Assembly: GCA_020152595.1 (NCBI GenBank)
Contig: JAIGNY010001671.1
Span: 908,599-972,598 of the forward strand
Direction of reading: 5' to 3'
Source: Chiridota heheva
Lineage: Eukaryota > Echinodermata > Holothuroidea > Apodida > Chiridotidae
Length of the DNA: 64,000 bases
Part shown: in pieces, positions 1-55,630 of the stretch
Position numbering within the stretch: the stretch's first letter is position 1
Layout: every line of letters starts with the position of its first letter
Translations under genes and position numbers: made by a program
Notes under the pieces: generated by a model
Database searches by the model: none
What the model saw: the letters and a program-made list of their open reading frames with translations, nothing else
What the model was told of the DNA's origin: nothing

Positions 1-279
1 ATATGATACAGCTGATCGCTTTGTTTTTAGTCCAGCAGTGTGCAGTTACTATGCAATCTGATGACCTCAGGTCACGAATCCAACCAAGTGAATAGCGTTA
101 GAGATAGCTGACTATATTTAGGTTAATTAGTTCGATTAATTCCAAAAAGGCTGACAATTTTGTAAAACAATGAAACACTCATCTACTTGGCTTGATGACA
201 TGGATACTCCATACAATATACAATTGTGATGCAACAATTCATCATTTTGAATAAACCAGCAACCAGCATAGGTACTCAC

Positions 280-405
280 CAGGTCAGATGTACATAGTAT
301 GGAAGGCTGTTGTACAGATAAGGGAAAGCGATCTTGTACTCTGTGCGGATCTGCTGACGTATGATGATTTTGTTCACATCATTAAACTCGTTCCAATCTT
401 CATCA
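280..405 (-). CDS. PRPF8: PRPF8 coding exon 6 (last exon in window)
   Basis: Translated on the minus strand this exon reads [17 protein letters not shown] and on through [13 protein letters not shown] to VHLTW. It continues directly from the previous exon in the Prp8 N-terminal domain. The acceptor is TTTACAG before 405 and the donor is GTGAGT after 280. The exon is 126 nt, enters in phase 2 and leaves in phase 2. The junction codon with exon 5 becomes CAT (His) where I recall Gln in the human protein, a mild change. The next expected Prp8 block was not seen in 1-279, so the remaining gene lies beyond the left edge. It is too short to stand out as an ORF and was found by following the protein. 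I am very sure of the identity. Confidence 0.95.
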
Positions 406-500
406 CTGTAAATGAAAAGTGTAAAATTACCAATCATTTGAATTCTTACACAATTTACAAGCCATCAACTACAAATATTAGGGTTGTGTGATGCGCTTAC

Positions 501-1615
501 ATGTCTCAATGGTATATAAGCCTGACTTTACATTTGATGTCTCAATGGTATAAAAGCCTAACTTCACAATTGATGTCTAAATGGTATAAAAGCCTAACTT
601 CACATTTGATGTCTAAATGGTATAAAAGCCTGACTTCACATTTGATGTCTAAATGGTATAAAAGCCAGACTTCACATTTGATGTCTAAATGATATAAAAG
701 CCTGACTTCACATTTGATGTCTAAATGGTATAAAAGCCTGACTTCACATTTGATGTCTTAATGGTATAAAAGCCTGACTTCACATTTGATGTCTCAATGG
801 TATAAAAGCCTGACTTCACATTTGATGGCTAAATGGTATAAAAGCCAGACTTCACATTTGATGTCTAAATGATATAAAAGCCTGACTTCACATTTGATGT
901 CTAAATGATATAAAAGCCTGACTTCACATTTGATGTCTAAATGGTATAAAAGCCAGACTTCACATTTGATGTCTAAATGATATAAAAGCCTGACTTCACA
1001 TTTGATGTCTAAATGGTATAAAAGCCTGACTTCACATTTGATGTCTTAATGGTATAAAAGCCTGACTTCACATTTGATGTCTCAATGGTATAAAAGCCTG
1101 ACTTCACATTTGATGGCTAAATGGTATAAAAGCCAGACTTCACATTTGATGTCTAAATGATATAAAAGCCTGACTTCACATTTGATGTCTAAATGATATA
1201 AAAGCCTGACTTCACATTTGATGTCTAAATGGTATAAAAGCCAGACTTCACATTTGATGTCTCAATGGTATAAAAGCCTGACTTCACATTTGATGTCTAA
1301 ATGGTTTAAAAGCCTGACTTCACATTTGATGTCTAAATGGTATAAAAGCCTGACTTCACATTTGATGTCTAAATGGTATAAAAGCCTGACTTCACATTTG
1401 ATGTCTAAATGGTTTAAAAGCCTGACTTCACATTTGATGTCTAAATGGTATAAAAGCCAGACTTCACATTTGATGTCTCAATGGTATAAAAGCCTGAATT
1501 CACATTTGATGTCTAAATGGTATAAAAGCCTGACTTCACATTTGATGTCTAAAATGTATAAAACCTGACTTTACATTTGATGTCTAAATGGTATAAAAGC
1601 CTGACTTCACATTTG
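501..1615. repeat. 36-bp minisatellite, about 31 copies, TATAAAAG in most units
   Basis: A tandem array inside PRPF8 intron 5. The unit is 36 bp, so plus-strand reading frames run through several units as a 12-residue repeat (MSKWYKSLTSHL-like). Many units have TGA or TAA from ATGG>ATGA or CTAA>TTAA changes, so it is not a gene. Most units contain GGTATAAAAG, a canonical TATA-box string, on the strand opposite to PRPF8. Variant units recur every 8 units: the TCTTAATGG variant is at about 757 and 1,045, exactly 288 bp apart. That shows expansion by blocks. Confidence 0.95.
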
Positions 1616-2139
1616 TTTACACATACATATCACATGCTACATTTACAGTCAAACATTGCACCTATTATGTACAATCCTACATGGAAATGAAAACAAAACA
1701 GTATTTCTTCAAAAAAATTGTTTTGATTTTAAATCTGTTCAAACATTTAAGCTGTAATTCTATCGGCTGATTTTGATTCCATTTGATCAATTTTCTAGAG
1801 TTTGATTTTATTCCTGCAACTCAATTTCAGAAAGCATAATTTTATTCCTGCAATCCTATTCCTACACCAGTTGCCTCATCTTGCAAGGCAATAAATGTAC
1901 TTGGTGCTCCATACCCAAGTTTGAAAATAAGACCATCATTGATGAATGCTCTGACATAATTTGTCGACCTCAAGTAAGTTTTATGTAACACATGTGTGAG
2001 GTTCTTGTGAGAGTGATGCATGATTCTGGTTGTTTAAATCACTTTCTGAATGGGTCTTTTGATTTGACAATGACATCATCAAATCTTTGATTAGGTAAGT
2101 TGTTAGATTGGGTATTTTACATTCTATTTTCAACAGCTA
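1616..2139. other. Intron 5 sequence without recognised feature
   Basis: AT-rich intronic DNA between the minisatellite and the SINE. I see no exon, RNA gene or inverted repeat here. Confidence 0.5.
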
Positions 2140-2275
2140 AAGTTATATGGAAATGCCAACAGCTGTTTGATAAACCAGTTGTGAAGCACTGGTGAATGAA
2201 GACCGACAGGGAAAAGAACCCGAGATCTCTAGCTTGCCACATGTGCTGATGGTATGACCACGGAGGTTTCTAGTC
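2140..2275 (-). mobile_element. tRNA-derived SINE fragment (copy 1)
   Basis: The minus strand shows a tRNA-like head (GTGGCAAGCTAGAGATC, then a degraded GGGTTC B-box region). It is followed by the core CCAGTGCTTCACAACTGG and TTTATCAAA. The same order occurs at 11,648-11,765, where the B box is clearer. The core resembles the widespread invertebrate SINE core with CAACTGGT-TATCAAA as I remember it. It lies in intron 5 of PRPF8 in sense orientation. Family assignment is inferred. Confidence 0.6.
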
Positions 2276-2525
2276 TTCTTTGGATTAGAACAATAACGTA
2301 CGCTAATATTTTAACTGTTATAAGACCAAAAAGCTACAACTTTCTGTAGATAGATAGAATACTGTACTATATAAGAATTCTTGCTCACATAAAAATGAAC
2401 ACATCAATTAAACCATACATCAAAATTTATCTTCCTAAAACTGTTTAAAAAATGGCTAGACTGTGTGTCTATCATGTCCTATGTGATGCATGGCTTGAAA
2501 AAGTGAGTTGATGATTGCTTAAAAT

Positions 2526-2675
2526 ATTTGTACCAGTATAAATCCAGGTTATATGATCATGAAGATGAAGACCACCAACCAACGATGCAAGTGACTGGTG
2601 TGTTTAGTCTAGCATTGAGTTCGAGCAGGACACCAGCTGGAGGGTGCAGCTGGCCTGTAGATACCATACAATGCA
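2526..2675 (-). ncRNA. H/ACA box snoRNA candidate, PRPF8 intron 5 copy
   Basis: The RNA read on the minus strand starts at a GCAUUG/CAAUGC basal stem. It has an apical GCCAGCUG/CAGCUGGU hairpin, then the hinge AGACUA (fits ANANNA). A second hairpin follows, closed by ACCAGU/ACUGGU with an upper GGUC/GACC stem, then ACA and three nucleotides (AAU). That is the H/ACA snoRNA plan, where the RNA guides pseudouridylation with dyskerin, NHP2, NOP10 and GAR1. The copy lies in the sense direction in intron 5, the usual one-per-intron arrangement for intron-processed snoRNAs. It is 150 nt, like the three other copies in this gene. Here the apical 5' stem has one G.U wobble. Conservation between copies drops at the predicted ends. 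A SINE is the main alternative, but no copy is seen outside PRPF8. Confidence 0.75.
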
Positions 2676-2971
2676 TTTATGGGCCATAAAAGATATTCTT
2701 ATGCAAGAAGATAAAGAAAGATGCACTATAAACCAACAACCTATCACTTTTTGTTATTTTGAAATTTTCAACAATGCCTCAGAGACCAATCAGATGACTA
2801 TGCAAAGGAAGGAAAACTCTTCTTCCATAAAAATGAATAAAATTCAAGGAGAAAATTATGCACACTAAACAATCACATTTTATTTCATTACTATTTTTAT
2901 CTTTTTGTTTCTGTCACAAGGAGTTTTCTTATACATTCAGAATAATTTTATAACAGAGCTAGTGAACTTAC

Positions 2972-3184
2972 TGCAAGTTTGCATCCCTGACTAAAGGCTC
3001 AAACTTGGGTCCACCAGGTATGGCCATGTTGAGTGCTTTAGATGTGAAGAACGACTTGAGATCAAACAGATAGAAGTAGTTGTCATCCACTAAGTCTGTC
3101 AGCAGCTGGTTGCCCAGACGATACAGAGTTGACATAATGGGGACGGAAAGATTCCACTTCTTGTAGCTGGTCCCATTCACAAAT
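2972..3184 (-). CDS. PRPF8: PRPF8 coding exon 5
   Basis: Encodes the stretch from [11 protein letters not shown] through [17 protein letters not shown] and [16 protein letters not shown] of the Prp8 N-terminal domain, nearly identical to the human protein as I recall it. The acceptor is TTCCAG before 3,184 and the donor is GTAAGT after 2,972. The exon is 213 nt, with a phase 2 entry (AA|A, Lys) and phase 2 exit (CA|). Prp8 is the scaffold of the U5 snRNP and of the spliceosome's catalytic core in the nucleus. The first Met of the longest ORF here is internal: the codon before it is Val and comes from the exon. Confidence 0.97.
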
Positions 3185-3446
3185 CTGGAATAAAATGATC
3201 AATAAAAAGGTTACTGTACTTAAATAGTTTTTGTCAAAACACATTTCATTATACGCAATTTAATCATGCACTTGGCAATGTATTTCGACAAATCATTACT
3301 TTATAGTGGTGGGCAGCATGTGGAATTCTTTCACACACTTACAATCAAAACCAAATTCCCAATGTTGAAATAATTAAAAACATGCACCTGTGTATTTAAA
3401 AAAATGTAAAAAATGAACAACAAAAACCACTAATATCTGTCAATAT

Positions 3447-3998
3447 TAGTGATGTCACGACGTATTGATTATCGTGGAGAAAAATATCGCGATACTTTTC
3501 AAGAAACTGACTCACGACACAAATTATTAATATCACTAACGTTATATGATCATGGAGTTACAATGCATGATATGATAAACGCAAAAAAAATGATTTGCAG
3601 ATCTAGCAGACAACAGGATCGCGTGACTATTACGTCCATCACGCATGTGGTTGGTAATTCAGCCAACGTGACCATGAATCATAGAAGTGAGAGCCTGAGT
3701 GGCACATTCTGGACCAATTTTCCGTTCTTTTTGCCAACTTACACCAGTGCGTGCCAGTATGTAGAGACGGAGCATGATTTTTATTTAGTTGTTTTTATGT
3801 TTCATGATTATTTTGCACATTGACTTTTAGACTTAGTACCGTAACGTCAGAATTGTAACGTACAAAGTAGCCTAGCCTAGTTGCATGAAAATTTTTTAGT
3901 TAAGTATTAGTTTTTGGTATCGCGATATGTCGCGAGAGGCATATTTCATGTCGTGATAAAAGAGATATCGCGATAATCAATATGTCATAACAGCACTA
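3447..3998. mobile_element. hAT-like non-autonomous DNA transposon (MITE)
   Basis: A 552-bp element in intron 4 of PRPF8, bounded by terminal inverted repeats that start TAGTGATGTCACGACG on the left and, reverse-complemented, TAGTGCTGTTATGACA on the right. Both then continue ATTGATTATCG and further TATCGCGATA strings. It is flanked by a perfect 8-bp direct repeat GTCAATAT at 3,439-3,446 and 3,999-4,006. An 8-bp target duplication with TAGTG ends fits hAT elements. The 124-codon plus-strand ORF inside begins in the left repeat and resembles no transposase I know, so I do not call it a gene. Confidence 0.85.
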
Positions 3999-4006
3999 GT
4001 CAATAT

Positions 4007-4655
4007 GTTATCATTTCACTATGTTCACACCTAGAAATAAAGGAGCTTTTGTTCGCGAGTTAGGGTCCTCTTTTTTTTACATGGGGAATTTTGAAATAAC
4101 ACAGGTCTAAGTTTTTAATACTCATGTCGTTGAAAATTTACAAAGGTATTCTATAAGAAATAATGATGATTAATTTGAATATTTGTATCAAATATTTTCA
4201 TTAACATGAAACATGTTTTCAAATAACGAACTCTTATTAAAAAAAAGGGCACTCTACATTAGCTTCTAATCCTGAACTGCCACTCAAACTTTACAAGAGA
4301 GCCAACTGTCAATTGCTGAAAGGCTATCACCCAATAAAATTTGTGGAAGACTGAAGATTCCTCTTGAATGGCATGTACCAGTTCATAATCATATCTGCAT
4401 GTAAATTAACTGATGGTAAACCTCCTATTTAGATATCTATAATACTTTTACAGTATACATAATTTGATTGTCCATTTCTTTTTAAATACATGCAAAGTTA
4501 CAACTATCTATGGATACACAGAATACTATACAACAAGAATGAATGCAGAAGTTCTGGCATACATACACACATATTTCTTCTTGAAAAACCAAAATGTTGA
4601 GTCGTATGTGATGCAAGGTTTGGAAAATTGACTTGATAATTGTTACAAATTTTCA
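4007..4655. other. Intron 4 sequence without recognised feature
   Basis: AT-rich intronic DNA between the hAT-like element and the second snoRNA copy. The last ~60 bp before 4,656 resemble the flanks of the other snoRNA copies. Otherwise I see nothing. Confidence 0.5.
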
Positions 4656-4805
4656 ATTTGTGCCAGTATAAATCCAGGTCATATGGTCATGAAGATGAAG
4701 ACCACCAACCAACGATGCAAGTGACTGGTGTGTTTAGTCTAGCATTGAGTTCGAGCAGGACACCAGCTGGAGGGTGCAGTTGGTCTGTAGATACCATACA
4801 ATGCA
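4656..4805 (-). ncRNA. H/ACA box snoRNA candidate, PRPF8 intron 4 copy
   Basis: Same 150-nt plan as the intron 5 copy. The basal stem is GCAUUG/CAAUGC, the hinge AGACUA, and the 3' hairpin has GGUC/GACC. The ACA box is followed by AAU. Two stem differences weaken this copy. The apical 5' stem reads ACCAACUG against CAGCUGGU (one A-C mismatch), and the outer pair of the 3' basal stem is A-C (ACUGGC instead of ACUGGU). Both pocket strands are unchanged. It sits alone in the sense strand of intron 4. It may be the least constrained of the four copies. Confidence 0.68.
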
Positions 4806-4854
4806 TTTATTGGTCATTGAAGAGATATATATTGTGCACTAATAAAGGATTACT

Positions 4855-5350
4855 TTAGGGGTCAAGCAAGTCCATTTTATATGAGAGAGGACTTAAACAG
4901 AAATGTGAAAAAGCATTCAAAAATCTTATTCCGTTAAGAAGAAGATATCATTTGTGTAGAAAGGACTAAATACAGATTAGTTGTAACATCACAGCCTCAA
5001 ATTCTACAAAGTTTTTAGGTATTCTATCATATTTTGTCCTGCAATTTTGTGGCTTGAAAACCATTGGATACGTCAGGAGAGGAGTCAAACAGAATCTTGT
5101 AATGCTAAATATAATTTACCACCAGAAGAAACTTCAAGGCAAAATAATTCAAACAGTAAAAAAGTTCAATCAATTTTCTTTAAAATACATTAACAATTGT
5201 TAATAATGTGAGGATAAGTGCGCCAACCTTCCATAGTAGACTTACTACACCAGTGTAAAGGAGTAAGATATTGAAGTAATTTCTTCACCATTTTGTTTCT
5301 TTTCAAGTCCTCTTTCATATAAAATAACCTTGCTTGACTGCTGAAATAAT
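4855..5350. mobile_element. Foldback (long inverted repeat) element, copy A
   Basis: Begins near TCAAGCAAGTCCATTTTATATG and ends near CATATAAAATAACCTTGCTTGA, which are inverted complements. Inside are the family marks ATCTTATTCCGTTAAG, TGTGTAGAAAGGACT and CTATCATATTTTGTCCTGC. The same family occurs at about 32,090-32,660 and 35,325-35,905. It lies in PRPF8 intron 4, immediately next to the snoRNA copy. No coding capacity is seen. Confidence 0.75.
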
Positions 5351-5567
5351 CATTCCACCAAGAACCTATCCCTTATATTTTTAATATTATGAAATTCACA
5401 AAATTGCCTCAAGAAGCAGTGACAAAGCAATAATTACGAAAAATCACTCTTTCATAAGAAATTAAATAACGAAACTATGCACACTAAATAAGACAAAAAT
5501 GTATTTCATTATTAATATCCATCACCTACACGAAGGGTGTGCTCAAATATGAAACCAATCATCTTAC

Positions 5568-5783
5568 TTTGATTCAGAAAGTGGTTTATGGTCATAGAAC
5601 CACTCAAAAACTGGCCCGTCCTCTTCTTCTTCCAGCTCCATCTGAATAGGCTCCAAGGGCTCCACATCAAGCACATTGTCGGCATAATCCAGAGGAGGCT
5701 CTTCATCATCAAATGGAGGGTACCGCATACGCTTGAAGTGACGCCGATCTCGCTTCTCCCTCCTCATCATGATCCACATGGTG
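5568..5783 (-). CDS. PRPF8: PRPF8 coding exon 4
   Basis: Encodes [20 protein letters not shown], then [21 protein letters not shown] and the acidic [11 protein letters not shown] region of the Prp8 N-terminal domain. This is among the most conserved blocks of the protein. The acceptor is TTTTAG before 5,783 and the donor GTAAGA after 5,568. Length is 216 nt, with entry GG|C (Gly) and exit AA| (phase 2). It joins exon 5 in frame through an AAA Lys codon. The acidic insert ([10 protein letters not shown]) differs from the human sequence only modestly. Confidence 0.97.
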
Positions 5784-5945
5784 CTAAAAGCAAGATACAA
5801 ATAACTTATTACAAATGCACAAGCATATATGCACATTTTTTCTTCAAAATACTACTGTGTATGGGCCCAAATTATGTGAATATTAAGTTCTAGATTTTAG
5901 TCCTAGATGCAAAGCTTGGCAAATTGACATGCTTATTGTTGAAAA

Positions 5946-6095
5946 GTTTGTACCAGTATAAATCCAGGTTATATGGTCATAGAGTTGAAGACCACCAACC
6001 AACGATGCAAGTGACTGGTGTGTTTAGTCTAGCATTGAGTTCGAGCAGGACACCAGCTGGAGGGAGCAGCTGGTCTGTAGATACCATACAATGCA
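5946..6095 (-). ncRNA. H/ACA box snoRNA candidate, PRPF8 intron 3 copy
   Basis: A 150-nt copy with perfect ACCAGCUG/CAGCUGGU and GCAUUG/CAAUGC stems, hinge AGACUA, 3' stems ACCAGU/ACUGGU and GGUC/GACC, and ACA followed by AAC. Relative to the intron 4 and 5 copies, the 3' hairpin loop changes from UUCAUCUUCAU to UUCAACUCUAU. The 5' loop changes from CACCCUC to CUCCCUC. No predicted pair is broken. About 130 bp of flank on the 5' side of the RNA is shared with the intron 1 copy, so these two are the most recent duplicates. It is sense-oriented in intron 3. Confidence 0.77.
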
Positions 6096-6299
6096 AATTT
6101 TAGTGTTCATAAAAGAGCTTCATTATGTGTGGGAAGGTTAAGAATTAGTCACTCAAAATTGACCAATACTTTAACATTTTAAAATTCTGGCTTAGCAAAA
6201 ATATTATTTCAGTCAATTCCCAAGCTCGTGTTAATGAAGCATTTGACATCATTCTCTTCGAGACAAGCCCGGCCCAGCCGATCATTTTTGACAACTTGT

Positions 6300-7740
6300 A
6301 AACACCTCCGCCAAAGAAGATGGACGGAAATTATGTTCTAATTACCTCTGCCAACAAAGTTGGATGGAGGTTATGTTTTCGCCTCAGTTTGTTCGTTTGT
6401 CATCAAATATCCCAATAACTGATAGTTGGATTTTGATTAAATTTGGTGTGTGGTTTTGTTACTGCTTACAAAGAAGTAGAACTGTGAACGTTTAGGAATT
6501 TTAGTAAATGTGTACATGCCAAAAAAAGCGAGCGTGTATCATTTCATACGATTAGAGCAGTAATTTTCGGAAGTACACCAAAATGGTTACAATTTATGAT
6601 GCTAAGTAAAAAAAATTGCGCAACCAGTATGGCAAAAGTATTTACTCCATTCCCGAAATATATGCTGGGATTTTGCTTTCCAAATCGTAAAAAGTTCACT
6701 TCTACAGTGAATCAACATTTTTATGGAAAATGTGCTTGAAAATTCAGTTTAGAAAGAACAGGAAACTTTCCTTCCATGTCATTTAATCTCAACAGCATAA
6801 CTTGGCTTGCACTGTGAAAATCTTGCATACTATGATACCTCGCCGTAAAACATTTCAGAACTATGCCACCACCCCAGAAGTACTGCTCATATCAGTCATC
6901 TGGAAAAACGGTCGTCATCTTTGCTAAGCATGCAGAATTACAGCTCTGTTAAATCCTGTTTATTTTGCAATATTTTTTCTTTCTTGCAAAATTTTTAAAC
7001 TCATCAGGTAATATTTACATGTAAATGCACTGATTGTCAAGTATTTTGACCGTGTGTTTTTTTTGGTTGATTTACCAGCTTGTAAAACGGGTCTTGATTG
7101 AGTGGGATAAAGTCTTATGTTATGGCCTATTGTTACTTTCACTGTTTACTGCTGCACATTCGCGGTGCATATCACAAGTTACTCAGATTTCGGCAAAATC
7201 AAAATGCAAAATATCTCCATTCATAGTCCAGTACTGTACATTTGTAATTCTCGAATTTAAAAAGAAATATGCCAATCGGGTTTACACTGTTTGTAAAGTA
7301 ATTGATTGGAATTTTGTCAGCCAAATGTATGTGTGATTTGCATCATAAAGATATTGATTTTCAATGGCAAGACTTTATGAAAAACGATTACTTGCAATTC
7401 AATAATTAGTCAAAGTTTACTGCATTTGCGAACATTTAGAATGTACACGCTAAATGGTCACAGCTCTAGGAAGAAGTGATTAAAATTTGGGACTTATTGG
7501 AACAAGGGAGAGTAGAAATGGAGGGGTGGGGACATTTTAAGGCAAGATTTATCAAGACTTAGTTGAAACTTTCCATTGGAATGTGCTAAACAAAAAGCTC
7601 ATGCCATGAAAGAACAGCCATACTATCAATTTTCTGGGCTTAAAGAAAATCAAATAAGTGGTCTCTAGTATCAAAAAATCAAAACAATTGCTTTCTGCCA
7701 TGAATAAAAATGATGGAATGTAAATCTAACCCGAATACAG
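6300..7740. repeat. Interspersed repeat, split by an insertion
   Basis: 6,300-6,476 (GGAGGTTATGTTTTCGCCTC, GGTGTGTGGTTTTGTTACTG) and 7,469-7,740 (GAAGAAGTGATTAAAATTTG onwards) are two parts of one repeat. An inverted, uninterrupted copy is at about 25,705-26,050. The family reads like one common in marine invertebrate genomes. It lies in PRPF8 intron 3. Confidence 0.75.
6477..7468. mobile_element. 992-bp hAT-like element nested in the interspersed repeat
   Basis: The left end is TAGAACTGTGAACGTTTAG. The right end, reverse-complemented, is TAGAGCTGTGACCATTTAG, so the termini are inverted repeats. Flanks are CAAAGAAG (6,469-6,476) and GGAAGAAG (7,469-7,476), an aged 8-bp target duplication. 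The uninterrupted paralogue at about 25,960 reads through this site with a single GGAAGAAG, acting as an empty site. The ~100-residue ORFs inside on both strands resemble nothing I know. Confidence 0.75.
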
Positions 7741-7744
7741 CTCA

Positions 7745-8400
7745 AACAAAACAATGAATGCTTAGCCTGAAAACAATGATCACAAGCGATGATCATGAAG
7801 TGTTTAGAAGAGATTGTTTGGGGTTATTACTTGGTGGGTCGAGGCTTCCTGAGGTAGATTGTATTCCAGTAAGGAGTGAGCCGGGAAGGATGGGGGAGGC
7901 GCTCAACAAAGTGCTATAATTCTAGTTTTATTCTGGAATAGGTATCTTAACTACAGTGGTGCCGTAAAATGAAATTCATTCCAACAGGGTTGTTTTTGAA
8001 GGAGTTCTAGATTTGTTATTGTCTTAATATTGGAAAAAAAAGAACTTTAGATTTGTTGTTTGTTCATTAGGTAATTTTGTCCCCAAAGAGAGTAAATTGA
8101 TTTGTAGGAATTAAAAAAAAAAAGGTTACACCTTCCGTGCTCCTGACTGGTTTGGCAGATTTTAAAATTTAAGTGAGGTTTATTCAGAAAGATTATAAGA
8201 TGCCCCACATTTTTATATCAAAAACAGTTTGTTGCGAAAATGTTCAGGGGGAGTTCAAGCAGATCCAAAAGCGTACATTTCTCCCAAAACTGTTGTCTTT
8301 CATCGCTTCCGAGGAGTCTAGTGTGGACCTATAGTGTTACTTCACAGGTAGTGGACATATACCATACCTTAAATGGTAATTTAAGTACAAATGCAAATGC
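7745..8400. other. Intron 3 sequence without clear feature
   Basis: AT-rich intronic DNA. A ~30-bp string CCGTGCTCCTGACTGGTTTG at 8,135 recurs at about 9,517 in the same orientation, bracketing the LINE fragment that follows. An open frame (8,240 onwards) leads into that fragment. Confidence 0.4.
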
Positions 8401-8995
8401 ATTTTTCATTGATATGAAAGCTCTGAAATTAAAAGATCTCATCAATTATGATATAAGACTGCCTAGATTATGTTTAAAGCCAACATTTTTTTATTACCTT
8501 CAAATTTGCAAAAATTATTTACTGAAAAATGGGGATATCTGGGGACACGTCAAAGGGACAATTTCCAACAAGTTTATGTGCGAACTACATTGAAAAGCTA
8601 TGTGTGTTTCAGTTCATGGTGTTAAAATATGGAATCTGCTAAATTTGGAAATTAAACAGTATAAAAGTATATATATATTTAAGAGAAGATTTAAATTTTA
8701 AAAATTACTGTAATCTTACTGAATTTCATACATGTATCGTTATTGGATAGGTTTATGTGTACAACACATTTATTGCTCTGTTAAGTATTTGAATGTATTA
8801 TTTTAAGAGGGGGGAGAATCACATAAGTTCAATTTTAAACTTCTTCTCTCTCCTTTTCCATTAATTTTGGTTTAAATTGCAAATGTCCATAACACTTGTA
8901 TTCATTTTGTTTACTATTTGTATATCGTATATTATTTAAGGTTTTGATGTACTGAGATGCATGATGGAAATAAATTACAACAAACAAACGAACAA
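8400..8995 (+). pseudogene. 3' end of a non-LTR retrotransposon (RT C-terminus and tail)
   Basis: The translation contains LKLKDLINYDIRL and, after a frame change, RQRDNFQQVYVRTTLKS and GVKIWNLLNLEIK. These are typical of the C-terminal tail of reverse transcriptases of CR1/jockey-like non-LTR elements (the 'R..L..HG...WN.L' block). A short untranslated region ends with AAATAAATTACAACAAACAAACGAAC-type sequence, a simple-repeat tail as such elements often have. It is a 5'-truncated, frameshifted copy in intron 3 of PRPF8, in antisense. Confidence 0.7.
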
Positions 8996-11647
<2,652 letters not shown>

Positions 11648-11765
11648 AGTTAAAGTTTAATGTCCACGGTCATTTAATAAACCAGTTGTGAAGCACTGGT
11701 TAATGAAAATCCACCAGGGATTCAACCTGGGATTTCTAGTTTGCCAGGCTGATGCTATGGAATGC
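11648..11765 (-). mobile_element. tRNA-derived SINE (copy 2)
   Basis: On the minus strand: AGCATCAGCCTGGCAAACTAG, then GGTTGAATCCC (B-box-like, plus-strand 11,717-11,727), then CCAGTGCTTCACAACTGG and TTTATTAAATGACC. Order and words match the copy at 2,140-2,275. A pol III promoter-like head joined to a shared core indicates a SINE. Sense orientation, PRPF8 intron 2. Confidence 0.65.
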
Positions 11766-11869
11766 TAGAATCACCTAAGTCTTCAACTCCAGGAAACACA
11801 TATCCATTTACCTTAGATATTCCAAAAGTTATGCACTACGAATCTTAGAAGAAACTCTGATGCACTTAC

Positions 11870-12039
11870 CCCAAGATAGACTCTCTTATCGTGCCTGAAT
11901 TTTCTGTTTGTCATGTCACCATGGTCACGGATAATCTTACGGACATGCTCTGGTGGCATGTCCTCTTTCGTTGCATCCACAAAGCCAAACTTCCTCTTCT
12001 CAGCATATCGTTTGGATTGAAGTTGCTGCCATTTTCGTG
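11870..12039 (-). CDS. PRPF8: PRPF8 coding exon 2
   Basis: Encodes [40 protein letters not shown] and [16 protein letters not shown], the start of the conserved Prp8 region. The acceptor is TTTTCTTTTAG before 12,039 and the donor GGGGTAAGTG after 11,870. Entry is phase 1 (G|CA, Ala), matching exon 1. As written it is 170 nt and ends on a full codon, whereas exon 3 needs 169 nt. The GGGG run at the donor is the suspect. Everything else matches the family at near identity. Confidence 0.96.
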
Positions 12040-12349
12040 CTAAAAGAAAACAAAATATCTCCATTGATTATCTACTTTCTTATTATTATTCTCAAAACAC
12101 TAAACCACTGTAAATCAATCTTTTTGATTTGCTGCTACTAATAATGCACACACAGGTATTGAGGCAAAACTTCTTTCACGAAAAAATTGAAATATCAAAT
12201 GTAATTCACAGAAACGTTTAGCTACAACCAGAGCCATAAAAATATACATAACTGAGTTTGCAGTTCACTTAAATATGAAAAGCTATCACTTTCTTTGATG
12301 AGATAGTATATACAAATACTAAAATGTGACATGAAATACATGCACAGAA

Positions 12350-12690
12350 CTAACATAGAAATCAAGGCATATAGTAGAAATCAAGATATATAGTAGAAAT
12401 CAAGGCATATAGTAGAAATCAAGGCATATAGTAGAAATCAAGGCATATAGTAGAAATCAAGGCAAATATTAGAAATCAAGGCATATAGTAGAAATTAAGG
12501 CATATATTAGAAATCAAGGCAAATATTAGAAATCAAGGCATATGTTAGAAATCAAGGCATATATTAAAAAGCAAGGCATGTAGTAGAAATCAAGGCATAT
12601 ATTATAAATCAAGGCAAATAGTAGAAATCAAGGCATATATTAGAAATCAAAGCATATAGTAGAAATCAAGGCATATATTAAATATCCAGG
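12350..12690. repeat. 19-bp minisatellite, about 17 copies
   Basis: Tandem units of the type AGTAGAAATCAAGGCATAT in PRPF8 intron 1, with sequence drift (AGT/ATT, GCATAT/GCAAAT). It ends about 115 bp from the intron 1 snoRNA copy. No coding or structural role is evident. Confidence 0.95.
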
Positions 12691-12804
12691 CACTTATAAA
12701 AATATGCATATTTTACTTTAAAATACTGTATTGGACTTTGCTCCATGAGTATTGAGTCCTATGTAATACAAAGCTTTGAAATAATGACCTGCTTATTGTT
12801 GAAA

Positions 12805-12954
12805 AAATGTACCAGTATAAATCCAGGTCAAATGGTCAAAAAGTTGAAGACCACCAACCAACGATGCAAGTGACTGGTGAGTTTAGTCTAGCATTGAGTT
12901 CGAGCAGGACACCAGCTGGAGGGAGCAGCTGGTCTGTAGATACCATACAATGCA
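12805..12954 (-). ncRNA. H/ACA box snoRNA candidate, PRPF8 intron 1 copy
   Basis: The fourth 150-nt copy, sense-oriented between exons 1 and 2. Stems GCAUUG/CAAUGC, ACCAGCUG/CAGCUGGU, ACCAGU/ACUGGU and GGUC/GACC are all present, the hinge is AGACUA and the ACA box is followed by UUU. The 3' loop is UUCAACUUUUU and the next internal loop changes CAUAU to CAUUU. A hinge base changes outside the H box. Both guide pockets are unchanged. That differences sit in loops and hinge while stems and boxes stay is the best evidence in the window for RNA-level constraint. Confidence 0.77.
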
Positions 12955-13505
12955 AATTTTAGTGTTCATAAAAGAGCTTCATTATGTGTGGAAAGGTTAA
13001 GAATTAGTTACTCAAAATTACCCTATTTCTTAGCATTTTAAAATTCTGAGCTAACAGGCTTATCAGAAATATGATTTAAAAATGTACAGAAGAAAGTTGA
13101 GAGGACGATGTTAGCCAAAGTGTTAATTCTGGACAATGTTAGCCATAAGTGTTCTTTCTTACTAAAGTTACAGACACATATCCTACAAAAAGTCACTAAA
13201 GTATCTTTTGCACACATCAATACATTTATTTCAATTTTTGGTTTTCATTTCTCTTGTTGTTTATTCATTTCTCTGTAAGTGGGTAAAATTTACACTTCAA
13301 TAATCAACTCGTTCAACCAAATGCTTATGCCGAGGGCATACCCTTTTGTCCTCGTGATCAAAATCCATAAAGTAGTGTTACAAAAAACAAAATCCTTAAA
13401 AATTGTCCTGAAAGTTTTCTTAAGACAAAACATTCCTCTTATTAAACAATCGAAGACAAAAGAAATTAAATCAGATCAGATTTTTAAAATATTCCCAAGT
13501 GTTAC

Positions 13506-13707
13506 CTTTTTCCTGAAGTTTTTCTTCTGACATGAAATGTGGCTTGCTGGGTCGTGGTGGTGGTTGGTGTTGGTGCTGAGGAGGCGGAATCTGTTGCATT
13601 TGGGCTGGATGATGTGCCATGTAAGGCTGCCCATATCCAGCAATGGGCATGCCTATGATGTAGCCTGGTGGCATCGCCATGGTAAAAGAACCAAGGCTTC
13701 AAACTTC
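13506..13707 (-). CDS. PRPF8: PRPF8 first coding exon
   Basis: The exon runs from an acceptor (CTCTTATTGTAG before 13,707) to a donor (GTAAC after 13,506). Translation starts at 13,680 in a good context (ACCATGG), with an in-frame TGA 18 bases upstream within the exon. The first ~45 residues are a low-complexity Pro/Gln/His/Gly/Tyr tail (MAMPPGYIIGMPIAGYGQPY onwards), as is usual and poorly conserved at the Prp8 N-terminus. PHFMSEEKLQEK follows, joining RKWQQLQ in exon 2 through an Ala codon. Prp8 holds the U5 snRNP together and cradles the catalytic RNA of the spliceosome. An acceptor upstream of the ATG implies at least one non-coding 5' exon further right. Confidence 0.95.
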
Positions 13708-14579
13708 CTACAATAAGAGCAAAATATTTTTATCCTTATAGCTTTGTACACAGAAATTCTTCATTCACATTGACATTTTTGAAGACTACAAAGGCCTTCA
13801 AAATGAGATTATTGTTGTTGTTGTTGCTATCATTAAACATTTGATAAAGTGCTATCATCTGTAAAAGGAACCACATTCAGCTGCGCTGCACAATAATAAC
13901 AAATATAACCATAAAAGAGTGAAAATTAAATAAAAGATAAGTAGTTAAAAAACTAAATTTAAAAAAATTACACCTAAAATGTAAAATGATGTAAAACAAA
14001 TTATAAAGCAGTACAAGATAAAAATGAAAAAAAATACCAACTATAGAACAAAATTTGCAGGACACAGATACAAGTAAAAACTTAAAAGCAGTCAGATAAA
14101 AATAAGACACTCTGAACAAAAAAGTTTTAAGGTACTTTCTTAAAAGTCTGAATAGAAGCACAATTAACCTTTCTGGGTTTAATGATTGACAGGTTGTTTT
14201 AACCAATTACTGCACGAATTTGGCTTGCAACAAAATTTGTGTAACTAAGTGGGTGCAAACATCCTACGCGGTACAGTACAGCTAGCTAGGGCGCAGCGCT
14301 GATGTAGTCAATACAACTTACTGTACAAAACAAATTTTTGCACACACAGACTGAATGACGGTAAAATGGTGAACAAAAATTGTGCTTACGGAACTAAAAT
14401 TTTGTTTATCCTATTTGCTAAAACTCTAAAAATCCGGAGAAGTGCTAAAAATGAATCAAAAATGCGGCAGGCTACGCAAACATCTAAACTAAATGTCAAC
14501 GCATTGGTAATGCACAATTGCGGATTTTAGGTTTGTTTGCCCCACATAGTTACCGCGTTGCTATGGTGGGCGTGGCCTA
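13708..14579. other. PRPF8 5' region, no clear feature
   Basis: Probably the intron between a non-coding first exon and the start-codon exon. It holds a (GTT)n-like stretch near 13,812 and A-rich sequence to about 14,150. A CA|GTAAGT string on the minus strand near 14,320 could be a donor, but nothing else supports an exon there. Confidence 0.35.
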
Positions 14580-17419: not shown

Positions 17420-18157
17420 GCTCTCCTTTAAATAGATTCAAGTTTATCCACATCGCACTGGTGATGGGGGTCCCAGACTGCTGATGCGTACTCAAGTACT
17501 GGCCTGACTAGAGCTTTATAAGCAGTGGATTTAACGTCGGTGGGACAGTTTGAGAGGTTACGTTTTGATAGGCCAAGTACAGAGTTAGCTTTTTTGGTTA
17601 TGTTGTGTATATCCCATCTAAGTTTATTATCAATTTCAACACCTAGGTATGGGTGGGAGTTAACATGTTTTAGTGGCTGGTTGCATAAGGTATAAACAGG
17701 TGATTTAAAGCATTTCTTGGAGGAAATTGACAAGAAGTAGCATTTAGAGGTTGAAATTTATTTGCTATTTGTTTTGCCATTGTTCAAGTTTGTTAAGATC
17801 ATCTTGGAGGATTTGTTGGTCAGATGGGTTATCAATTGTTCCGTACACAAGGCAGTCATCAGCAAACAGTCTAACTGTGCTGTTTATATTATCAGGGATG
17901 ACATTTACATATAAAAGGAAAAGTAATGGACCCAAGACAGTACCTTGTGGTACACCGGATAAAACTTGTTTAGAATCAGAGATTTCACCATCACAGACAA
18001 CACACTGGATGCGGTTGTTAAGGAATGATGCAAACCAGGCCAGGAGATTTCCATCAATGCCATAGGCGGAAAGTTTGGATAACAGGCGCTGGTGTGACTC
18101 TTTATCAAAGGTTTAGGAGAAGTCAAGGATAGCCATAGAGACGTTACTGTTTTGGTC
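17420..18157 (-). pseudogene. CR1/jockey-like reverse transcriptase fragment
   Basis: Minus-strand blocks in order are SNVSMAILDFS (RT motif A region), SKQVLSGVPQGTVLGPLLFL (motif B), VRLFADDCLVYG (catalytic FADD motif C), then LGVEIDNKLRWDIH (motif E region) and KALVRPVLEYASAVWDPH (thumb). There are in-frame stops and at least one frameshift, so it is dead. The upstream side stops abruptly at 18,157 against the (CAAA)n tail of the next element. The N-terminal part and endonuclease are missing. Confidence 0.88.
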
Positions 18158-20275
18158 AATTTTGTTTGTTTGTTTGTTTGTTTGATGAGGTCTTAACGGC
18201 ACCACGACAATGAAGGTCAAATTGTGCCTGAGAGGTCAGATCATTTTAGAGGTAGGAAGGAAAGAGACCAGGGGGAGATGAGAGAAATTCAAGAACAAAA
18301 GCCAGAAAGCTGTGATCGAGAGGAGATGCATGGGTAAAACAAAAACAAAGTAGAGAGGGGTGGAAAAGGAGAATTAAATATGGTTGTAGAGGGATGCATG
18401 CTGAAGAAAGGAGATTATTTTATCCGGAGGATTTTTCTGGAAGAACTCAGCAATTGAGTTGTGGGGAGCGAGGGAAGCTCTGGAAAGGTTGTACAGGGGG
18501 CAAGCAAGGAGAACGTGTTGGATTGTGAGGATGCAGTGGCAATTGTTACAGAGGGGTTGGGGGGAACCAATAAGGAGGTGGGAGTGAGTAAGGTGGGTGT
18601 GACCAATTCTAAGACAGGTAATATGAACGTTGTCGATACGAGAAAGGTTGTTGATGGTGGATTTGATCGGGATTGTGGGCTGGATGACATGGAGTTTGTT
18701 ATCAATTTGGGAGTTCCATAAGGTTTGCCAGCGGTCACGAACAAGGGAAGCGATAAGCGGTTTGATGTCAGAGAGGGTTTTGGGGAAAAAGGGAAGGGAG
18801 GAGGTTAAGGGCAAGCTTAGCGGCTGTATCAGCCCTGTCATTGCCAGGGATGCCAACATGGCTGGGTATCCAGAAGAAAAGAACACTTTTCCTGCAGAGG
18901 GTGGGAGAAAAGAGTTTCCGGAGGAGGAGGTGGCAGGTGAGGTTATCCCATTTAAGATTGAGTAATGAAGTAAGAACAACCTTTGAGTCAGAGAAAATGG
19001 CAAAGTGACTAAGAGGAGAGTACTCAATAAAGTTGAGGGCGAGAAGAATGGCCTTAGCCTCAGCTGAAAAGATGGATGAGTAGTCAGGAAGTCTGCTACT
19101 GAAGGTGATGTCTTGGATGATGGCAGCAGCAGCTGTCTTGTTGCCTTCCTTGGAGCCATCAGTATAGATGGAGGTGTAATTTGAGTTGGTCTTTGATTTG
19201 GTTGTGGAGATTGATGAAGAGGTTAGGGCGAGTTTGAGTTTTGTTATAAGTGGAGAGGTCTAGGTGGACAGAAGGAAAAGGGGTGGCCCAAGGAGGAAAA
19301 GTGGGCCAGGAGTAGGTGCCGAGAGTGGCGAGGTTGATGCCAAGATGGAAGAGGTCTGATTTAATGCGTAAGCTGAAGGGAGGGTATAGGGTTTTAGTCC
19401 TATCAAAGAGGGAGGAGAAATTGGGGTACCTAATGAGGTTGTAAACAGGGTTCTGGGTGTTGGTGAGGACTCTAAAAGCATAGGAGAGGCTAAGCTTTTT
19501 ACATCTAAGTAGAAAGGGGGGTTCGTTGGCTTCAACATGAAGGCTAGTGATTGGGGAGGTCCTGTAGGCTCCTAGACAAAGCCTGAGGGCTTCATTTTGG
19601 ATGGTGTTAATGTGGTTGAGGTATGAGTTGTGAGCGACACAGTAAACAATATTGCCATAGTCAAGCTTGGCACGAATGGTGAGCCTGAAAATTTTGAGGA
19701 GAGCATAGCGGTTCGCTCCCCAAGTGGTGTTGGAGAGCAGTCTGAGGAGGTTGAGGGAGCTATTGCATTTTAGTTTCAGGTTGGTGATGTGTGGCTTGTA
19801 GGTGAGCTTGGGGTCTAGAGTTAGACCAAGGAACTTTGTGTTTTCAACTTTAGGGATGCGATTCCCATTGAGCACAAAGTTTGGGTTGGGGTGGAGGTTG
19901 TTGAAATGACAAAAGTGCATGCAGACTGTCTTGTCTTTGAAGAATTTAAAATCGTTATTGTTGCTCCAGACTTGCAGCTGGTTGAGGCTGGTTTGGAGCC
20001 TATTTTCAACAATAGAAAAGCTAGGGGAGGAGTAGAAGATGGTGAAGTCATCCACGTAGAGGGTACGTTTGATGCTGGGGCCAAGGTTATTTGCGATGTC
20101 AATAATGCTCAGGTTGAAAAAGTGGGGGAGAGGATGCTGCTTTGGGGGACACCCTCTTCTAGGGGGTACGGGTTAGAGAGGGTGTGGCCAATACAAACTT
20201 GGAACTGCCTGGGTGAGAGGAAGTTTTGAATAAAGATGGGGAGGGGGCCTCTGAAACCGATAAGAGATATCATCT
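18158..20275 (-). pseudogene. Non-LTR retrotransposon relic with RT and RNase H domains
   Basis: A 5'-truncated element on the minus strand. From 20,240 leftwards it shows EEGVPQSSILSPTFF (RT motif B), LYVDDFTIFYSS (motif C with YVDD), KFLGLTLDPKLTYKPHI and KLDYGNIVYCVAH (thumb). In a second frame comes an RNase H domain with YTDGSKEG, SAEAKAILLAL, FSDSKVV and WIPSHVGIPGNDRADTAAK. In a third frame a C-terminal CNNCHC...H...C zinc-finger-like end follows. RT plus RNase H is typical of I-clade-like non-LTR elements. At least two frameshifts separate the domains. The 3' end at about 18,160 carries a (CAAA)n tail. Plus-strand ORFs here are shadows. Confidence 0.9.
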
Positions 20276-32089: not shown

Positions 32090-32660
32090 TTCTTTTTAAA
32101 GAATTAGTTCAGGGATTATGCAAGTCAATCATATATGAAAGAGGACTTCAAAATACACAAAATAGTGAAGAAACCATTCAAAAATCTTATTCCGTTAAGG
32201 AGATATCTAAGTATGAACTTTGTTATTATTTGTGTAGAAACGACTGAAATCAGACTATTTGTGATGTCATAGCCTCAGATTCCTCAGTCTTGATGTATTC
32301 TATCATATTTTGTCCTGCGATTTTGCGGCTTAGGAACCATGGGATATGTCAAAAAAGTAGTAAAATTGAATTAAGGAAGGGTAATTATAATATACCACCT
32401 AAAGAAAGTTTGAGGAAAAATAATGTAAGAATTAAATAAACTTTCTTTAAAAACATAAAATTTTCGAGGAATCTGAGGCTGTGACATCACAACCAGTAGT
32501 CTGATTTCAGTAATTTCTACCGAAATGATACCAAACTTTAAACTTGAATTTCTCCTTAACGGAATAAGATTTTGCAATGCCTTCTTCACCATTTTGTTTC
32601 TTTTGAAGTCCTCTTTCATATAAGATGGACTTGCATGACCACCGAACTAATCCTTTAATA
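32090..32660. mobile_element. Foldback element, copy B (long inverted repeats)
   Basis: The first ~190 bp (from AATTAGTTCAGGGATTATGC; includes AGAGGACTTC, ATCTTATTCCGTTAAGGAGA, TGATGTCATAGCCTCAGATT) recurs inverted in the last ~200 bp. Same family as 4,855-5,350 and 35,325-35,905. The inverted arms make up most of the element. Minus-strand ORF 32,371-32,619 lies in the right arm and is not a gene. Confidence 0.85.
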
Positions 32661-35324: not shown

Positions 35325-35905
35325 GCTTTAAAGGATAAGTTCAATGCTCAAGCAAATCTTATATGAACAAGGACCTCAAAAGACAACATAGTGAAGTAAC
35401 CATTTAAAAATCTTATTCCGTTCAGGAGATATCAAAGTTTAAATTTGGTATCATTTGTTTAGAAATGACTAAAATCAGACTAGTTGTGATGTCATAGCCG
35501 CAGATTCCTCAAAGTTGTTATGTATTCTATCATGTTTTGTTGTGTGATTTTTAGGCTTTAAAACCATTGAATATGTCAAAAAAGTAGTAAAACTGAATCT
35601 AGTAAGGGTATTTATAATGTACCACCTGAAGAAAGTTTGAGGAAAAATAATTTAAATAGTAAAAAATTTAAATAAATTTCCTTTAAAATACATTAACAAT
35701 TACTTAGAATGTGAGGATGAGGACAACAACTTTCCATAGTAGACTTACAACACCAATCATTTCTACACGGATAAGACAGAGCTTCAAATTTGAATATCTC
35801 CATAACGGAATAAGATATTTGAATGGTTTCTTCATTTTCTTTCTTTTGAAGTTCTGTTTCATATAAGATGAACATGCTTGACCACTGAACTTATCCGCAT
35901 ATCAA
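35325..35905. mobile_element. Foldback element, copy C
   Basis: Third copy of the family at 4,855 and 32,090: starts AAGGATAAGTTCAATGCTCA, contains ATCTTATTCCGTTCAGGAGA and CTATCATGTTTTGTTGTGTG, and ends GACCACTGAACTTATCC. The interior (AATGTGAGGATGAGGACAAC, TTTCCATAGTAGACTTACAA) matches copy A better than copy B. Confidence 0.8.
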
Positions 35906-55330: not shown

Positions 55331-55630
55331 AAGAAGTCAATCAGTCAGAGATAACTCAGCCATAAGAAGCTAACATCAGATGCACAAAGCCTTTCACCAG
55401 TGCGACAAGCTCATTTCTGTTCAAAGATTGAACTGGTGAAAATATATCATAAAAGGGACCCAACAACCTGGACATATGGATATCTTGTCCTCAACGATCA
55501 GTCAAAGGCATGCTTAGGAGACCCTCAAATTTTCCAGAAATGGAACATTCATGGCCCTGAACACCAATACGAACTATCAAATTACCGTGGTCATAGCATC
55601 GTCTCCAAAGGTAGACGAGCCAACTAGGTA
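55270..55630 (+). pseudogene. gag/protease fragment, array unit 2, right arm
   Basis: Plus-strand copy with KIYHKRDPTTWTYGYLVLND, QSKACLGDPQIFQKWNIHGP and EHQYELSNYRGHS. It shares the 22-bp inverted stem with the left arm. It ends at the unit boundary near 55,630. Confidence 0.68.

Follow-up and report, generated by a model that had tools for sequence, protein, structure and literature searches.

Four SNORA8-like H/ACA small nucleolar RNAs predicted in introns of PRPF8 in the holothurian Chiridota heheva

Results

We analysed a 64,000-nucleotide (nt) stretch of the Chiridota heheva genome (GenBank assembly GCA_020152595.1, contig JAIGNY010001671.1, positions 908,599 to 972,598 of the forward strand), hereafter called the window. 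Introns of the splicing factor gene PRPF8, on its minus strand, hold four closely related segments, which are very probably intron-encoded H/ACA small nucleolar RNAs (snoRNAs) of the SNORA8 (ACA8)/snR31/snoR5 guide group that multiplied within PRPF8 as blocks of intron were duplicated. In window positions, and all on the minus strand, copy 1 occupies 2526–2675 in intron 5 (H box 2605–2610, ACA 2529–2531), copy 2 4656–4805 in intron 4 (H box 4735–4740, ACA 4659–4661), copy 3 5946–6095 in intron 3 (H box 6025–6030, ACA 5949–5951) and copy 4 12805–12954 in intron 1 (H box 12884–12889, ACA 12808–12810). Intron 2 carries no copy. An earlier note, made from the letters of the window, had proposed four 150-nt segments on the PRPF8 sense strand, one per intron, and its coordinates, lengths, strand and number are all correct.

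The same note had named PRPF8 as the host, rightly so: six minus-strand exons translate to the N-terminal part of the protein, and the 297-residue peptide of the joined exons 2–6 matched Prp8 chains from human and other sources, in the best case over all 297 residues. Coding exons 2 (11870–12040), 3 (10318–10482), 4 (5567–5782), 5 (2971–3183) and 6 (279–404), all on the minus strand, were placed by translation and by the Prp8 structure match, the edges of exons 3–6 being approximate, and the first coding exon (13507–13680, minus strand) had its start codon and edge set by reading. Intron numbers are counted from this first coding exon; a further intron upstream in the 5' untranslated region, which is possible, would shift them. 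From the 5' splice site to the copy the distance is about 295, 761, 4222 and 552 nt for copies 1–4, and the intronic position is therefore not fixed.

The six pairwise comparisons of the copies gave 145, 143, 139, 142, 140 and 142 identical nucleotides out of 150. BLASTN with 7-base words detected no fifth copy on either strand of the 64 kb; the remaining matches were at most 21 nt long. A covariance model built from the four copies likewise matched only those four on both strands of the window; its bracket string was one column out of register over much of its length, so this was mainly a sequence search. A 20-base core word had no match in viral contigs, which are uninformative for eukaryotic sequence.

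Read on the sense strand, each segment has the layout of an H/ACA RNA. The first half consists of a lower stem (2–7/59–64), a pocket and an apical stem (19–29/37–50), the second of a lower stem (77–82/139–144), a pocket and an apical stem (96–106/118–129). In agreement with the earlier note, all four copies have the GCAUUG/CAAUGC stem, the hinge AGACUA at positions 66–71, which fits the H box ANANNA, and an ACA at 145–147 followed by three nucleotides up to the predicted end of the segment. Two further stems that it had ascribed to every copy are less uniform: two copies pair perfectly along the apical stem ACCAGCUG/CAGCUGGU, copy 1 having a G-U pair and copy 2 a mismatch there, and the ACCAGU/ACUGGU stem closing the second hairpin is intact in three, copy 2 being mismatched beside the ACA. 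For copies 1, 3 and 4 the predicted minimum-energy fold is hairpin, hinge, hairpin and tail on one strand. Copy 2, in which pairs 26–40 and 77–144 are broken, is possibly a weaker or degenerating member.

Variation among the copies is confined to 15 of the 150 columns. Ten of these lie in the upper hairpins, and the rest are one linker, one lower-stem and three tail nucleotides. None falls in the 42 guide-arm and nine box columns (hypergeometric P 0.0013, the boundaries of these 51 columns having been drawn with the alignment in view); guide arms, H box and ACA box are identical in all four copies, copy 2 included. Standard pairs make up 98.5% of the 136 pair cells, versus 19.9–41.9% when the partners are slid by one to three columns. 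Both broken cells belong to copy 2, and three variable pairs stay paired via G-U.

Searched alone against 4227 Rfam models, copy 3 matched SNORA8 first (25.5 bits, E 0.0054, model positions 1–139 of 139), over exactly 5946–6095 of the sense strand, and the plant family snoR5a/F1/F2 (snoF1_F2) second (18.2 bits, E 0.16, model positions 1–140 of 140). These were the sole matches up to E 10, both end to end. Copy 2, the other copy run singly, had SNORA8 as its sole match (14.6 bits, E 1.7). Copies 1, 3 and 4 were covered by a permissive scan of 16 kb, where SNORA8 hit each of them on the sense strand with the exact 150-nt ends (copy 1: 25.8 bits, E 0.48, model positions 1–139 of 139; copy 3: E 0.58; copy 4: 24.2 bits, E 1.1); six other Rfam matches in the same scan (E 0.83–9.7) look, by reading, like chance. 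In the covariance-model check suggested in the earlier note, SNORA8 ranked first for copies 3 and 2, and all scores lay below gathering. Table 2 of a Neurospora study, available in excerpts, gives Nc ACA5 as the guide of 18S-Ψ996 (Ψ, pseudouridine) with snR31, snoR5 and ACA8 as homologs; the two best families of copy 3 are therefore homologs listed for a single guide, which further supports the family assignment.

We then scored the two guide pockets at the U's of human 18S, 5.8S and part of 28S ribosomal RNA (rRNA) and of U1, U2, U4, U5 and U6. Among these the best site of the 5' pocket was 18S U1056 (left arm 9 base pairs (bp), right arm 3 bp) and that of the 3' pocket 18S U1081 (8 and 3 bp), 25 nt apart. 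In copy 3, the left arm of the 5' pocket, AUGGUAUCU (6079–6087, minus strand), is complementary to AGAUACCGU of 18S over 9 bp with one G-U, and the right arm UCG (6042–6044, minus strand) pairs with the CGA just before U1056 and starts 14 nt before the H box. The left arm of the 3' pocket, GCAUCGUU (6001–6008, minus strand), is complementary to AACGAUGC of 18S over 8 bp, and its right arm UGG (5964–5966, minus strand) pairs with the CCA just before U1081 and starts 15 nt before the ACA. Spacings of 14 and 15 nt between target U and box recur in 4 of 4 copies; in H/ACA RNAs the target U lies, as a rule, 14–16 nt from the box. Human 18S is pseudouridylated to 93% at Ψ1056 and to 94% at Ψ1081 (Table 1 in excerpts of PMC6182160).

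Shuffled arms reached equal or higher top scores at any scanned target in 41 (5' pocket) and 20 (3' pocket) of 1,000 trials. With 18S as the only target, a score as good at a known Ψ arose in 13 (5') and 2 (3') of 3,000 trials; both pockets did as well at known Ψ together in none of the 3,000, and both had their top sites on a known Ψ, at whatever score, in 60 of the 3,000. Arms cut by hand from Rfam's printed consensus sequences gave U1081 as best site for the 3' pocket of SNORA8 (arms in the same register), and for snoR5a U1056 (5' pocket) and U1174 (3' pocket). According to excerpts of PMC8307265, yeast snR31 guides Ψ999. Because the m1acp3Ψ sites, yeast 1191 (excerpts of PMC8307265) and human 1248 (excerpts of PMC6182160), are offset by 57 nt, yeast 999 would be the equivalent of human 1056. 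The 16-base word GACCATAAACGATGCC around U1081 recurs in literature texts that also contain '18S', presumably as an 18S primer.

U1 small nuclear RNA (snRNA) was considered as a target of the 5' pocket and rejected: AGAUACCAUG of U1 fits the left arm by reading, but no U stands at the target position. No U1 site was among the eight best 5'-pocket sites listed.

The earlier note had conservation stopping at the predicted RNA ends. Similarity does drop sharply there, yet homology goes on: BLASTN alignments between copies extend over 218–238 nt in five of the six pairs and, between copies 3 and 4, over 327 nt. In blocks of 25 columns the mean identity is 0.91–1.0 in the core, 0.59–0.73 in the approximately 55–70 nt outside it and 0.07–0.48 farther out. 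We relied on the BLAST extents alone, as the null for the flanks was contaminated by a 36-nt satellite and its values of about 2% were left unused. The duplicated intron block around copy 3 (5896–6209, minus strand) aligns over 327 nt, at 88% identity, with its homolog around copy 4 (12752–13077), and the nearest 60 nt upstream of these two copies agree at 58 positions, so that their duplication may be recent. Homology beyond the 150-nt ends speaks against retroposition and fits duplication of DNA blocks. The simplest history is intron-block duplication, after which the surrounding sequence lost its similarity and the RNA itself was retained.

Other repeats were seen in the window. In PRPF8 itself, the 36-nt satellite fills 501–1615 of intron 5 (31 copies, 94% matches), and a 19-nt tandem repeat (12356–12692, 17.7 copies) lies in intron 1 near snoRNA copy 4. 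A second element is common to introns 5 and 2 (2113–2256 and 11626–11759; 74% alike, same strand); on the minus strand of 11626–11759 we read a B-box-like word, so that it may be a tRNA-derived short interspersed element (SINE), and ARAGORN reported no tRNA there. Copies of another repeat, some inverted, are spread across the window (4843–5354 in intron 4, 32097–32655 and 35329–35896). Minus-strand open reading frames (ORFs) at 17428–20172 read, by eye only, like pieces of a retrotransposon of the type lacking long terminal repeats (reverse transcriptase, RNase H-like). Between 53030 and 58592 the minus strand holds four occurrences of an ORF of 110–122 amino acids that starts with EANIKCTKLFTCATASSC; the plus strand has a partial relative (55355–55627).

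Discussion

Architecture, pattern of variation, matches to two H/ACA covariance models and the fit of the guide pockets to known 18S pseudouridines support the view of the earlier note that the segments belong to the class of intronic H/ACA snoRNAs. The RNA type itself is not new: it is a known and ancient guide group. The earlier reading had missed this resemblance, and therefore only the host and the copy number look new.

Several observations weigh against a SNORA8-type guide of these two 18S sites. The SNORA8 scores of the copies (14.6–25.8 bits) are below the gathering score of 38, as is the snoR5a/F1/F2 score of copy 3 below its own, and a default Rfam scan of the window at gathering scores listed nothing; given the 38-bit cut-off, we file the copies as SNORA8-like, in the same guide group, and not as Rfam-grade members of SNORA8. 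Taken whole, copy 2 has a minimum-energy fold that is not of H/ACA shape, its halves folding as hairpins, and the folding energies of the four copies are only mildly lower than those of shuffles (z -1.3, -0.4, -1.7 and -1.5), to which we give no weight. Covariation is uninformative, because the four copies show no two-sided compensatory change, most pairs are invariant and the pair measures do not differ from those of column shuffles. The target scan used human sequences not drawn from database records, skipped U's within 12–15 nt of the ends and covered only 960 nt of 28S, and for the 5' pocket of the SNORA8 consensus U1056 came second, behind U1160. The human SNORA8 target we take to be 18S Ψ1056; we found no direct statement of it in the literature. 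We did not find it in PMC9941101, PMC11128715, PMC2832892 or PMC6182160, nor in the excerpts of PMC2653536 and PMC8759569. SNORA8 or ACA8 as a whole word is absent from PMC9941101 and PMC11128715, PMC6182160 has the Ψ sites without SNORA8, and PMC2832892 gives length, northern and conservation data only for SNORA8/ACA8. Published assignments also differ: the excerpted Neurospora table has Ψ996 served by the ACA-box pocket rather than the 5' one, and the chicken study (excerpts of PMC2653536) lists ACA8 of mammals, together with E2, for a 28S site and classes the cognate in chicken as an orphan, so that neither source wholly fits the two-pocket assignment proposed here.

Could the segments be something other than snoRNA genes? 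That the copies stem from four chance insertions of a dispersed retroposon, such as a SINE, into introns of PRPF8 is very improbable. An element of about 150 nt is indeed repeated here, and dispersed repeats are common in the window, among them the SINE-like element shared by introns 5 and 2; but all four copies are sense to one gene, one per intron, neither strand of the 64 kb has a further one, and their homology reaches into both flanks, as in DNA block duplication. Nor is there a shared direct repeat of at least 6 nt within 25 nt either side of the copies, an A-rich tract in the 30 nt past their 3' ends, a tRNA gene in 1–14000 (ARAGORN) or an Rfam family at gathering score, and both guide pockets fit known 18S pseudouridines. 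A conserved intronic element that controls splicing of PRPF8 or serves it structurally is scarcely credible: the end-to-end fit of an H/ACA covariance model and distances of 295–4222 nt from the 5' splice site speak against it, and what would suit it is that the gene to which the four introns belong encodes a splicing factor.

Other explanations keep the H/ACA class. The RNA might be a guide with these boxes whose main target lies elsewhere (in an snRNA or 28S) or is lacking, with the 18S matches due in part to chance. We judge this improbable. It gains from the 960-nt coverage of 28S, from right arms of 3 bp each and from the shuffles, which reached the top scores at any scanned target in 41 (5') and 20 (3') of 1,000 trials and put both tops on known Ψ, at any score, in 60 of 3,000; it loses from both top sites being known Ψ 25 nt apart, from the sharing of these best sites by the SNORA8 consensus 3' pocket and the snoR5a 5' pocket, and from the printed listing of the guide group for the 1056-equivalent site (excerpts of the Neurospora study and of PMC8307265). 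Unlikely, but to be taken seriously, is a variant that does not exclude our explanation, namely that the copies are real SNORA8-type genes of which only some work, the others, copy 2 first, being decaying paralogs kept alike by recency or gene conversion. The two broken pairs of copy 2 and its 14.6 bits versus 24.2–25.8 in the others point this way, as does the 58/60 upstream identity of copies 3 and 4, whereas guide arms and H and ACA boxes are identical in all four copies, even in copy 2.

Among known systems, SNORA8 (RF00393) is the closest, with its two hairpins, hinge and ACA tail, an end-to-end covariance-model match, the 5' arm AUGGUA.CU and 3' arm GCAUC.UUGGUU in common with the window RNA and a consensus 3' pocket that, like that of the window RNA, fits U1081 best; it differs in that the window copies score under its gathering cut-off. 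Human ACA8 shares its host gene, JOSD3, with other intronic snoRNAs, and in chicken the cognate sits in a different gene that also hosts multiple snoRNAs (both from excerpts of PMC2653536), unlike the four copies in PRPF8. The plant snoF1_F2/snoR5a family (RF00482) shares the 5'-pocket guide words UGGUAUCU and CUCGAA; it differs in its 3' pocket, whose consensus is best at U1174, and in its weaker score on copy 3. Yeast snR31 and Nc ACA5 are homologs of ACA8/snoR5 by the excerpted listing, their sequences not having been compared with the window, and guide Ψ999 and Ψ996, the equivalent of human 1056 by offset. Nc ACA5, of 187 nt, is marked IR (intergenic, by our reading) with its ACA-box pocket assigned, unlike the intronic window copies.

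Among the papers listed for PRPF8/Prp8 and snoRNAs we found no PRPF8-hosted snoRNA, which is no proof, as most subscription papers were outside our reach; in one paper with Prp8 and snoRNA terms, available in excerpts, PRP8 is a knock-down target.

What we observed is position, strand, architecture, variation pattern, family match and complementarity; that the SNORA8-like RNAs are expressed, processed, assembled into ribonucleoprotein particles (RNPs) and modify these sites in C. heheva is inferred. Intronic snoRNAs are released when exonucleases trim the intron until the bound dyskerin RNP halts them, and each copy would be freed in this way from the spliced, debranched PRPF8 intron. In 18S rRNA, its 5' pocket would then direct pseudouridylation of the counterpart of human U1056 (yeast 999) and its 3' pocket that of the counterpart of human U1081; the four copies probably work on 18S rRNA.

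A bolder proposal, which we consider doubtful, is that a SNORA8-type guide entered PRPF8 in this lineage and multiplied there because the amount of guide is linked to splicing output, with up to four guides per pre-mRNA for the equivalents of 1056 and 1081, coupling the core spliceosome to modification of small-subunit rRNA; if so, one snoRNA would cover both 18S sites via its two pockets. A diverged member of a family can fall below the Rfam cut-off and would then be missed by automatic annotation. If expressed, the RNAs described here would give a guide group that spans plants, fungi and animals a new host gene and a four-copy intragenic amplification, and would carry the testable prediction that the two pockets of a single RNA serve two pseudouridines close together in 18S.

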